Shown here: one piece after another, positions 9,901-40,539 of the stretch
Numbering within the stretch: position 1 is the first letter of the stretch
Layout of the letters: the number at the start of each line of letters is the position of its first letter
Assembly: GCA_019745555.1 (NCBI GenBank)
Contig: JAIESX010000001.1
Span: forward strand, 186,001-250,000
Direction: 5' to 3'
Source of the DNA: Burkholderiaceae bacterium
Lineage (GTDB): Bacteria > Pseudomonadota > Gammaproteobacteria > Burkholderiales > Burkholderiaceae_C
Length of the DNA: 64,000 nt
Position numbers and translations under genes: made by a program
The notes under the pieces: generated by a model
What the model saw: the letters and a program-made list of their open reading frames with translations, nothing else
Databases searched by the model: none
What the model was told of the DNA's origin: nothing

Positions 9901-10143
9901 CTCGAAATCCTAGTGAAAGAGCGGTGGATTTTTTCTGCCCTCGGCTGCATCCGCCCAAGCGGCGGCAGGTTCCGGGCCACGTCCCGCCCGCTTGTACGTA
10001 TCGGGACCGGCAAGCTGAATCCGGTCCCGGCACGCCACAGGCCTCGGGAAAACCGCGAATTATCGCAAAATTTTCCAATCCCGGCAATGCTTTGGCGCGG
10101 CCCATGCATGCAGAACCTGAAGCTCGGGGGCGCCTGCCCTTGG

Positions 10144-10152
10144 TGTGGATAA
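10144..10152 (-). promoter_or_regulatory. DnaA box (TTATCCACA on minus strand) upstream of dnaA
   Basis: TGTGGATAA, perfect consensus in rpmH-dnaA intergenic region. Confidence 0.8.
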
Positions 10153-10192
10153 ATTCTTGATAAATTACAATTCCAGCTCCCGCCTCGACAAA

Positions 10193-10201
10193 ATATCCAC
10201 A
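10193..10201 (+). promoter_or_regulatory. DnaA box-like ATATCCACA upstream of dnaA
   Basis: 8/9 match to TTATCCACA. Confidence 0.65.
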
Positions 10202-10214
10202 ATAATCTTTCTCC

Positions 10215-11627
10215 ATGAGCGAGGGACCCCTCCATACCCCAGCCGCCAGTTCCCCGGCGAACGCCGGACCCAGCCTCTGGCAGGCTTGCGTTGACCAGCT
10301 GGCGCAGGAACTGCCCGAACAGCAGTTCAACACCTGGATCAAGCCCCTCACGGCCCAGCTGGCCGAAGACTATTCACGTCTGACCCTGTTCGTTGTCAAC
10401 CGCTTCAAGCTGGACTGGATCCGGGCGCAATACAGCCACCGAATTGCCGACCTGCTGGAAAAGATCTATGGTCAGCCCATAGCCATAGAGTTGGCACTTA
10501 CACCCAGGGAAAATCAAGTCAAGCCTCGTGATACAGCCATCGATATGGAATCGATCCCGGTGGAGGAGCCCTATGCCGGAGGTGCAGAACGGGTGCTGCC
10601 CAACAGCCGGCATCGTCTCAACACGGCCCTGACCTTCGAAACCCTGGTCGAAGGTACAGCCAACCGCATGGCGCGGGCCGCGGCCATGCACGTGGCCGGT
10701 TCGCCCGGCCAGCTCTACAACCCTCTGTTCATCTACGGCGGGGTGGGTCTGGGCAAGACCCACCTGATCCACGCCGTAGGCAACCGTCTGCTGGCGGAGC
10801 GGCCGAACGCCAAGGTTCTCTACATCCATGCGGAGCAGTTTGTTTCGGATGTGGTCAAGGCTTACCAGCGCAAGACTTTCGATGAGTTCAAGGACAAGTA
10901 CCACTCCCTGGACCTGCTGCTGATCGATGATGTGCAGTTCTTCGCCAACAAGGACCGGACCCAGGAAGAGTTTTTCAACGCTTTCGAAGCCCTGCTGGCC
11001 AAGAAGTCGCACATCGTGATGACCAGCGACACCTATCCCAAGGGGCTGCTGGACATCCATGAACGCCTGGTTTCGCGCTTCGACTCCGGCCTGACCGTAG
11101 CCATCGAGCCACCCGAACTTGAAATGCGCGTGGCCATCCTGATCAACAAGGCCTTGAGCGAAGGCGCCGAAATGCCCGAGGAAGTGGCCTTCTTCGTCGC
11201 CAAGAACGTCCGCTCCAACGTGCGTGAGCTCGAAGGCGCCCTGCGCAAGATCCTGGCCTATTCACGCTTCAACCAGAAGGAGATCTCCATCCAGCTGGCC
11301 CGCGAAGCCCTGCGCGACCTGCTGTCGATCCAGAACCGCCAGATCTCGGTGGAGAACATCCAGAAGACGGTGGCTGACTATTACAAGATCAAGGTCGCCG
11401 ACATGTACTCCAAGAAACGTCCGGCCAGCATCGCCCGGCCGCGCCAGATCGCCATGTACCTGGCCAAGGAACTGACCCAGAAGAGCCTGCCCGAGATCGG
11501 CGAACTGTTCGGAGGGCGTGACCACACCACCGTCCTGCATGCGGTGCGCAAGATTTCTGCGGAACGCCAGCAGCTGACCGAGTTGAACCAGCAGCTGCAT
11601 GTGCTGGAACAGACCCTCAAAGGCTAG
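10215..11627 (+). CDS. dnaA: Chromosomal replication initiator protein DnaA
   Basis: [17 protein letters not shown] Walker [10 protein letters not shown] Walker B, C-terminal [15 protein letters not shown] box-binding domain. Confidence 0.99.
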
Positions 11628-11891
11628 GAAGGAGCATTTCCCATCAGTCATCTAGAGCGACGGATAAACCTGGGGACAGTTCCGGCACAAGTCGATACTT
11701 ATCCACAGATCCTGACGACAAGGACAAGTTATGCAGGTCCGGCAAACTGTTTCCGGGTCCTGCTCACACAGGGTTCTACCGCGCTCAAGTGCTTGATAAA
11801 AAAAGGGAAAATGAGGCTGTCCACAGAAAGTCGCGTGCTTTAACTACTACTACTAATTTGAAATAGAGAAATCAAGGAAGAGGTTGGCAAC
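11628..11891. other. Probable core of oriC (dnaA-dnaN intergenic)
   Basis: TTATCCACA at 11699..11707, CTGTCCACA at 11817..11825, DnaA-trio-like TAACTACTACTACTAATTT at 11841..11859, A-rich stretch before the second box. Confidence 0.75.
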
Positions 11892-12998
11892 ATGATCGTC
11901 CTGAAGGCAACACAAGACAAGGTCCTTTCCGTATTCCAGTCGGTCTCGGGCATCGTGGAACGTCGTCACACCCTGCCGATCCTGGCCAATGTGATGATCC
12001 GCAAGACGGGCAGTGCCTTGCAGTTCACGACCAGCGATCTGGAGATCCAGATCCGGACCACGGCCGAACTCGATGGCGACACCGGCAACTTCACCACCAC
12101 CGTCGGTGCACGCAAACTGATCGACATCCTGCGTACCATGCCGGCCGACCAGACCGTGTCGCTGGAGTCAAGCCAGAACAAGCTCATCCTCAAGGGCGGC
12201 AAGAGCAAGTTCACGCTGCAGACCCTGCCGGCTGAAGATTTCCCGCTGGTGCAGGAAGCGGCCAATTTCGGGCCGAAGTTCAGCGTGCCGCAGAAGACGC
12301 TCAAGGACCTGCTGGGTCAGGTATCGTTTTCCATGGCAGTCCACGACATCCGCTACTACCTCAACGGTATCCTGTTCGTGGCCGAAGGCAAGCAGCTCAG
12401 CCTGGTCGCGACCGATGGTCACCGTCTGGCCTTTGCCTCGGCGACGCTGGACGTGGAAGTTCCCAAGCAGGAAGTCATCCTGCCGCGCAAGACCGTGCTC
12501 GAAATGCAGCGCCTGCTCAGCGATGCCGAAGGGGCGATCGAGATGCAGTTCGCGAGCAACCAGGCCAAGTTCAGCTTCGGCGGCATGGAGTTCGTGACCA
12601 AGCTGGTCGAGGGCAAGTTCCCCGACTACAACCGCGTGATCCCGAAGAACCACAAGAATGCCATCGTGCTGGGCCGCCAGCCCTTGCTGGCGAGCCTGCA
12701 GCGCACAGCCATCCTGACCAGCGACAAGTTCAAAGGTGTGCGTCTGAACATCGATCCCGGCACGCTGCGTGTCGCGTCGAACAACGCCGAACAGGAAGAA
12801 GCCGTGGATGAACTGGACATCGATTACAGCGGTGACAGCATCGAGATCGGTTTCAATGTGACCTACCTGATCGACGTGCTGACAAACATGGAACAGGACA
12901 TGGTCAAGGTCGAACTGTCCGATTCCAACAGCTCTGCGCTGATCACCATTCCCGACAATCACAGCTTCAAGTACGTTGTGATGCCCATGCGCATCTGA
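11892..12998 (+). CDS. dnaN: DNA polymerase III subunit beta
   Basis: MIVLKATQDKVLSVFQSVSGIVERRHTLPILANV; C-terminal YVVMPMRI. Confidence 0.99.
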   Translation: MIVLKATQDKVLSVFQSVSGIVERRHTLPILANVMIRKTGSALQFTTSDLEIQIRTTAELDGDTGNFTTTVGARKLIDILRTMPADQTVSLESSQNKLILKGGKSKFTLQTLPAEDFPLVQEAANFGPKFSVPQKTLKDLLGQVSFSMAVHDIRYYLNGILFVAEGKQLSLVATDGHRLAFASATLDVEVPKQEVILPRKTVLEMQRLLSDAEGAIEMQFASNQAKFSFGGMEFVTKLVEGKFPDYNRVIPKNHKNAIVLGRQPLLASLQRTAILTSDKFKGVRLNIDPGTLRVASNNAEQEEAVDELDIDYSGDSIEIGFNVTYLIDVLTNMEQDMVKVELSDSNSSALITIPDNHSFKYVVMPMRI

Positions 12999-39585: not shown

Positions 39586-40539
39586 TCACGCCGGCGACGT
39601 GGCGCGGAATTCGCTGGGGCTCATGCCGGTGTGCTCACGGAACACGCGGCTGAAGTGCGAGAGGTTGTTGAAGCCCCACGACAGGGCGATGTCGGTGATG
39701 GGGCGGGTCTGTGCCATCGGGTGCTGCAGCTCGCGGATGCAGGCTTCGATGCGCAACGCCTGGATGTAGCTGGCCAGGGTCTGGGACTCGTCGCTGAAGG
39801 CGTTGTAGAGGTGGCGCTTGCTGCAGTTGAGCGCGACGGCGATGCGATCCACCGTGAGCGCGGGGTCGCGCAGGTGCAGGGCGACGTAGCCGCGGATGCG
39901 GTCCTTGAGCGCTTCCTTTTGCGTGAGCTGCGTCTCCTGGCCCGAAAGTTCGATCAGCGACAGGCGCACCAGCTGGGCGATCAGCTCGCCCGCGCCGCGC
40001 GCAGCGTCCGCACTCATGTGCGGCAGTTCCTGGAAGGTGCTGCGCATGGTGGACAGGGCCACGCGCGCAATGCCGCTGGCGCCGCCGACGGTGCGGGCCG
40101 TCAGGTTCTCCAGCCGCAGCCCGCGCTCGAGCATCTGCGCCTTGGGCAGCATGACGATCAGGTGCTCCACGCGGTCCGGGTTGGCCACCGAGTAGCTGCC
40201 CGTGGTGTCGTAGAGGGTCCAGGCACCGGGCGTGACCCAGGCCTGGCGGCCCATCTGCTCCACACCGGCGCGGCCCACGTTGGGCGCGACGATCTTGAGG
40301 TAGCCCTCCTCGCTGGCGCGCACCATGTCCTCGGTGCGCGTCACATGATGGCGGTTGGCTGCGAGCCGGGTCAGGATGATGTCGCCGGCCCGCATGCTCG
40401 CCATGTGGCCGTCGAAGGTGGTGTCACCGTAGAGATCGCACTCCAGGCCGCCGAACTGCTTCCAGACCCAGTCACGCCAGACCGGCGCGCGTTCGGCCGG
40501 GGCGTAGTCGTCGGTGCTGACGGCGGTGACGTGCGTCAT
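39586..40539 (-). CDS. AraC-family regulator, FeaR-like
   Basis: C-terminal HTH (DIALSWGFNNLSHFSRVFREHTGMSPSEFR) with AraC-binding-like N-domain. Confidence 0.88.
   Translation of the reverse strand: MTHVTAVSTDDYAPAERAPVWRDWVWKQFGGLECDLYGDTTFDGHMASMRAGDIILTRLAANRHHVTRTEDMVRASEEGYLKIVAPNVGRAGVEQMGRQAWVTPGAWTLYDTTGSYSVANPDRVEHLIVMLPKAQMLERGLRLENLTARTVGGASGIARVALSTMRSTFQELPHMSADAARGAGELIAQLVRLSLIELSGQETQLTQKEALKDRIRGYVALHLRDPALTVDRIAVALNCSKRHLYNAFSDESQTLASYIQALRIEACIRELQHPMAQTRPITDIALSWGFNNLSHFSRVFREHTGMSPSEFRATSPA

Follow-up and report, generated by a model that had tools for sequence, protein, structure and literature searches.

A conserved DnaA box, IHF site and DnaA-trio module between dnaA and dnaN as the probable replication origin of a Burkholderiaceae bacterium

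The stretch of 64,000 nucleotides analyzed here (the window) belongs to the draft genome of a Burkholderiaceae bacterium (2.99 Mb, 57 contigs, 88.6% complete). The gene order is dnaA, dnaN and then gyrB, and the gap between dnaA and dnaN is 264 bp long. The following genes and features are present, in window coordinates:

10144-10152, - strand: DnaA box upstream of dnaA, overlapping a promoter-like TTGTGG-17-TACAAT conserved in relatives
10193-10201, + strand: second DnaA box upstream of dnaA, ATATCCACA, kept in relatives
10215-11627, + strand: dnaA, 470-aa initiator (curated model TIGR00362)
11671-11679, - strand: reversed DnaA-like box CTGTCCCCA, weak (3 mismatches), within a conserved CCTGGGGAtAgTT block
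11699-11707, + strand: distal DnaA box TTATCCACA, perfect, all nine columns ≥90% conserved
11729-11737, + strand: weak DnaA-like box TTATGCAGG, 3 mismatches, conserved in part
11786-11798, - strand: IHF consensus site CAAGTGCTTGATA, reverse complement of WATCAANNNNTTR, 9/9 specified positions, followed by an A tract
11798-11813, + strand: A-rich tract beside the IHF core
11817-11825, + strand: proximal DnaA box CTGTCCACA, 2 mismatches, exactly 19 nt from TTGAT
11826-11839, + strand: spacer GAAAGTCGCGTGCT, 14 nt
11840-11842, + strand: first DnaA-trio, TTA (3'-AAT-5' on the - strand), +14 from the box
11843, + strand: one-base slip (A) separating trios 1 and 2
11844-11855, + strand: four CTA trios CTACTACTACTA (3'-GAT-5' on the - strand)
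11856-11878, + strand: AT-rich tail, probably the rest of the duplex unwinding element (DUE)
11892-12998, + strand: dnaN, sliding clamp (curated model TIGR00663)

A first-pass annotation, made from the letters of this DNA, had placed a perfect DnaA box at 11699-11707 and a near box at 11817-11825, and both are found there. Its remaining elements are real, but are here read differently. The A-rich element GATAAAAAAAGGGAAAA, present from 11795, belongs to the perfect IHF consensus site; because of this consensus match and its fixed spacing, we dropped its reading as an unwinding element, and it is best read as part of the putative IHF site. A GC-rich spacer GTCGCGTGC is present at 11830-11838, but what is fixed among relatives is the 14-nt length of the spacer, while its sequence varies. 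The annotation had also seen four ACT/TAG triplets in TAACTACTACTACTAATTT (11841-11859). The four-unit repeat stands, but ACT and TAG are the same repeat read in different phases. Its predicted functional register is + strand CTA, equivalent to 3'-GAT-5' on the - strand, and the array has an earlier start, with the TTA at 11840-11842 and the extra base at 11843.

The array is set in DNA of 78% AT (11840-11875), with surroundings of 56-66% GC. (CTA)4 occurs once in the 64-kb window, and this is also the only run of at least three CTA within 20 nt downstream of a DnaA box with ≤2 mismatches. Applied to dinucleotide shuffles, the same criterion yielded no equivalent composite motif in 2000 shuffles of the gap or in 60 of the window.

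To examine conservation, 30 relatives were picked by DnaA similarity alone, the window's own genome being one of the 30 rows. The module lies in the dnaA-dnaN gap in 25 of them, so the triplets, whose conservation in related Burkholderiales the first-pass annotation had proposed to check, are kept. Conservation is strongest at the distal box, the TTGATAAAAAA block, the proximal box together with CCACAG, and the CTACTACTA array plus the AT-rich tail behind it; what separates these blocks varies freely. Two Clostridia matches and one gammaproteobacterial match of the contig scan are omitted from the conservation statistics. Twenty other families of the order were inspected by eye, and in many of them trio-like repeats of a looser form precede dnaN. 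A module much like this one (TTGATAAAAAAAC, TTATCCACA, CTATTACTACTACTA) occurs in a gammaproteobacterial MAG (L047, 3324-3386), just downstream of glyS, and dnaA is absent from the surrounding 8 kb examined.

Statistics on the IHF site were restricted to the relatives chosen independently of the motif. In each of the 25 modules, exactly 19 nt separate the end of the best match to the IHF consensus from the proximal box that follows; the match has 9/9 positions in 23 modules, 8/9 in one and 6/9 in one. A 9/9 site appeared in 0.9% of gap shuffles and occurs twice in the whole window. In E. coli oriC (L156), the best IHF match is oriented as in the window and likewise lies 19 nt from R1, so that the predicted site of the window adjoins the DUE-proximal box as in E. 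coli. Genes for both IHF subunits were counted as present in the window's genome: ihfA (TIGR00987, 127 bits over cut-off) and an ihfB-like gene, whose 118 bits with TIGR00988 are slightly below the cut-off of 119.95.

The basal unwinding system (BUS) was described for Bacillus subtilis oriC and is predicted in 85% of 2070 bacterial origins (PMC6669920, PMC8287927, PMC10721633). Its principle is thus already known and predicted in most origins, and the module of the window is a variant of it. The proximal box has ≤2 mismatches to TTATCCACA and points to the trios; the four CTA (3'-GAT-5') and the TTA provide at least three trios with a central A (3'-NAN-5') opposite the box strand; and the dnaA-dnaN location agrees with a place in the chromosome origin, with skew minima at or near the modules in relatives G003, G030 and G036. 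Residue I190 of B. subtilis DnaA has a role in single-strand binding (PMC8287927) and aligns with V214 of the window's DnaA, a conservative substitution. RLVSRF aligns with the arginine-finger region, and the box-reading motif GGRDHTTV is also kept, so that the protein is predicted to retain both the single-strand capture position and the arginine finger.

The designation as a variant follows from the slip. The BUS search program takes contiguous trios and a spacer limit of 16 (PMC8287927); applied literally (spacer 0-16 bp), the published rule yields no site in the gap because the slip after trio 1 makes the contiguous trios begin at +18. The sequence agrees with the rule only if the TTA at +14 is counted as trio 1 and one slipped base is permitted. 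A survey of 301 family genomes found YTA at +14 in 105 of 137 pattern matches, and in all 30 comparable modules with CTACTACTA at +18 (30 genomes of 17 genera), where ∼1 in 32 would be expected per site. These counts argue for a first trio at +14 and a tolerated single extra base. Among the 25 modules of the DnaA-chosen set, the first YTA is at +14 in 21 and at +15 in 4, and the slip is present in 24, L021 being without it. A one-base deletion in the trio array of B. subtilis slowed unwinding (PMC6669920), which makes a natural slip unexpected. In L048, L059, L068 and L074 the slip follows the second trio (CTAGCTACTACTA) or occurs twice per array, which suggests that 3- and 4-base steps may both be allowed.

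GC skew, another check put forward in the first-pass annotation, was computed from sampled stretches of genomes. The cumulative minimum of G003, a complete genome of the same genus, is at 728,415, ∼1.3 kb from the module. In G018 the sign of the skew changes between the samples flanking dnaA and the fine minimum is 36 kb off, and the minimum of the window's own contig is 34 kb from the module; neither of these two alone proves the position of the origin. Within the window itself, the skew profile is too coarse to place an origin. Five relatives have no module in the dnaA-dnaN gap, which there is ∼130-150 bp long and without boxes. A pattern search located displaced modules, 27-69 kb from dnaA, in four of the five (G026, G029, G030 and G036), and found none in the fifth, G034, a genome only 65% complete. 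The skew minimum of G030 is at 39,888, with a module at 40,117 and dnaA at position 1; that of G036 is at 278,389, with a module at 277,818 and dnaA at 304,237. In both, the minimum is ≤0.6 kb from a displaced module and away from dnaA. The minimum of G029 falls between modules and dnaA and is ambiguous, as are the skew profiles of G333 and G197. Because the minimum follows the module over dnaA in the two resolvable cases, the module itself tracks the origin. In Malikia (L051, L055 and L067) the module lies beside min genes, far from dnaN, with intact trios. In four genera, one displaced copy follows a PagL-like gene.

The rpmH-dnaA gap (window 10130-10201) contains two conserved DnaA boxes around the TTGTGG-17-TACAAT promoter-like sequence, and it remains beside dnaA where the oriC of relatives has moved. 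These boxes and the promoter-like sequence probably serve dnaA autoregulation, as does probably the box at 10144-10152 itself, which may possibly mark a second origin sub-region.

The dnaA-dnaN gap is very probably the place where the chromosome opens for the start of replication in this beta-proteobacterium. We consider it highly probable that the gap is the chromosomal oriC and that its unwinding module, a basal unwinding system assisted by IHF, spans 11786-11878. The computed basis is sequence, conservation, fixed spacings, and co-location and co-movement with skew minima; DnaA binding, IHF binding, strand capture and opening direction are drawn by analogy from other species. DnaA would bind the distal box at 11699 and the weaker sites, and IHF bound at 11786-11798 would bend the DNA so that distal DnaA meets DnaA on the proximal box (11817-11825). 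From there, DnaA would extend over the spacer of 14 nt to the trios of the - strand (TTA, slip, and four CTA as 3'-GAT-5') and capture the - strand. The AT-rich stretch up to dnaN would then melt and the helicase load. The first-pass annotation had suggested opening as in B. subtilis. Conservation, skew and the box-to-trio orientation support that view, but the layout also includes the IHF site at the E. coli spacing and the one-base slip. On account of this IHF site, the predicted layout combines the B. subtilis type with that of E. coli.

As in B. subtilis, a DnaA box points at a short spacer and at 3'-GAT-5' trios on the opposite strand, AT-rich DNA lies beyond the trios, the setting is the dnaA-dnaN gap, and a distal box is found upstream. 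Unlike the B. subtilis BUS, the window has one proximal box, not a tandem pair, and the conserved predicted IHF site. The spacer to the first trio is 14 nt against a published peak of 10-13, and the slip puts the contiguous trios, from +18, past the program limit of 16. With E. coli oriC (DUE, R1, IHF) the module shares order, orientation, the 19 nt between IHF core and DUE-proximal box, and weaker boxes beyond IHF. It differs by its strong CTA trio array, the BUS score of E. coli being described as weak (PMC8287927), and by its location, the E. coli origin lying at mnmG-mioC. By eye, no E. coli-type 13-mers were noticed in the window origin. The eTrio of Thermotoga maritima oriC is alike in that TAG repeats occupy the DnaA-captured strand next to the DnaA-binding region; that origin has a DnaA box of its own, a separate TTATT motif, and presumed HU instead of IHF (PMC10316083).

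The comparison with E. coli raises an alternative in which oriC opens mainly as in that species, by an IHF bend, melting of AT-rich DNA and return of the strand to upstream DnaA, the CTA repeat being melt-prone or supportive and no track for a DnaA filament. The E. coli spacing of the IHF site in all 25 modules is consistent with this, as is the slip, which would upset a strict three-base track (PMC6669920). Thermotoga can be cited on both sides: its annotated DnaA-trio is only supportive, yet an adjacent TAG repeat is essential (PMC10316083) and its DnaA binds TAG repeats. We regard this alternative as unlikely, since the conservation of YTA/CTA identity and of the +14 start goes far beyond what AT richness would require, and since in several displaced modules (e.g. 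G026, G029 and L159-L162) it is the IHF core that has decayed, while box, spacer and trios are kept.

Could the sequence instead be a DnaA-regulated promoter or leader of dnaN, with the true origin elsewhere, for example in the rpmH-dnaA gap? It does lie directly before dnaN, and the rpmH-dnaA gap likewise has two conserved boxes. The module, however, persists with intact trios far from dnaN in Malikia, G026, G029, G030 and G036, and for this reason the dnaN reading was dropped as very improbable. Where the module has moved, the dnaA-dnaN gap has shrunk and lost its boxes, and in G030 and G036 the skew minimum has shifted with the module away from dnaA. Short repeats are common, and the family-wide pattern scan yields background matches too, but that the array is a functionless trinucleotide repeat near boxes by chance is hardly credible: conservation already refutes it, and the shuffles, the fixed spacing and the co-movement with skew minima speak against it.

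The window's genome has one module, and several relatives have more; displaced modules often occur in more than one copy. Contig G030:C1 carries three, at 40117(-), 49317(-) and 69385(-). G029:C1 has two, at 3272034(+) and 3272406(+), 372 bp apart; G036:C2 two, at 268549(+) and 277818(+), 9.3 kb apart; and G333:C1 two in inverted orientation, at 98556(-) and 119121(+), 20.6 kb apart. Further tandem pairs occur in L183 and L184. The family-wide pattern has a chance background, estimated in control columns, and some single matches are probably coding (e.g. L158 and L177); pair counts were therefore restricted to pairs on one contig. Two or more strict-pattern matches within 50 kb on one contig were found in at least 24 of 301 family genomes, from 12 genera. 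The displaced copies examined contain the distal box, an IHF-like region, the proximal box and trios, and they differ in sequence and so are not assembly duplicates. A more speculative reading, which we hold to be doubtful but conceivable, is that this family has a portable origin unit ∼190 bp long, made up of the distal and proximal boxes, the IHF site between them, the 14-nt spacer and a trio array with tolerated slip, and that this unit left dnaA and multiplied, giving two or three separately usable modules 0.3-50 kb apart, direct or inverted, that would share initiation.

Bacterial origins are usually described as B. subtilis-like, with trios, or E. coli-like, with an IHF bend and a DUE. 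We found no prior description of a fixed IHF-box-trio layout in this family, of a tolerated slip at +14, or of moved and multiplied modules, and a search of literature outside subscription journals on Comamonadaceae origins, duplicated oriC and trios with IHF returned nothing direct. Here a single conserved module of fixed spacings combines both layouts, and since the family has many members that can be cultivated, point changes can be used to measure what each layout contributes. Whether DnaA truly steps in threes is a question on which the conserved one-base slip bears. The relatives amount to a natural experiment, in which relocation of the module was accompanied by a shift of the skew minimum in both resolvable cases. 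According to a 2015 article, there was no evidence for a bacterium using more than one origin per chromosome (PMC4403523); chromosomes with several modules bear on this question, and if the portable-unit reading is true, the window would exemplify the state with one copy next to dnaA.
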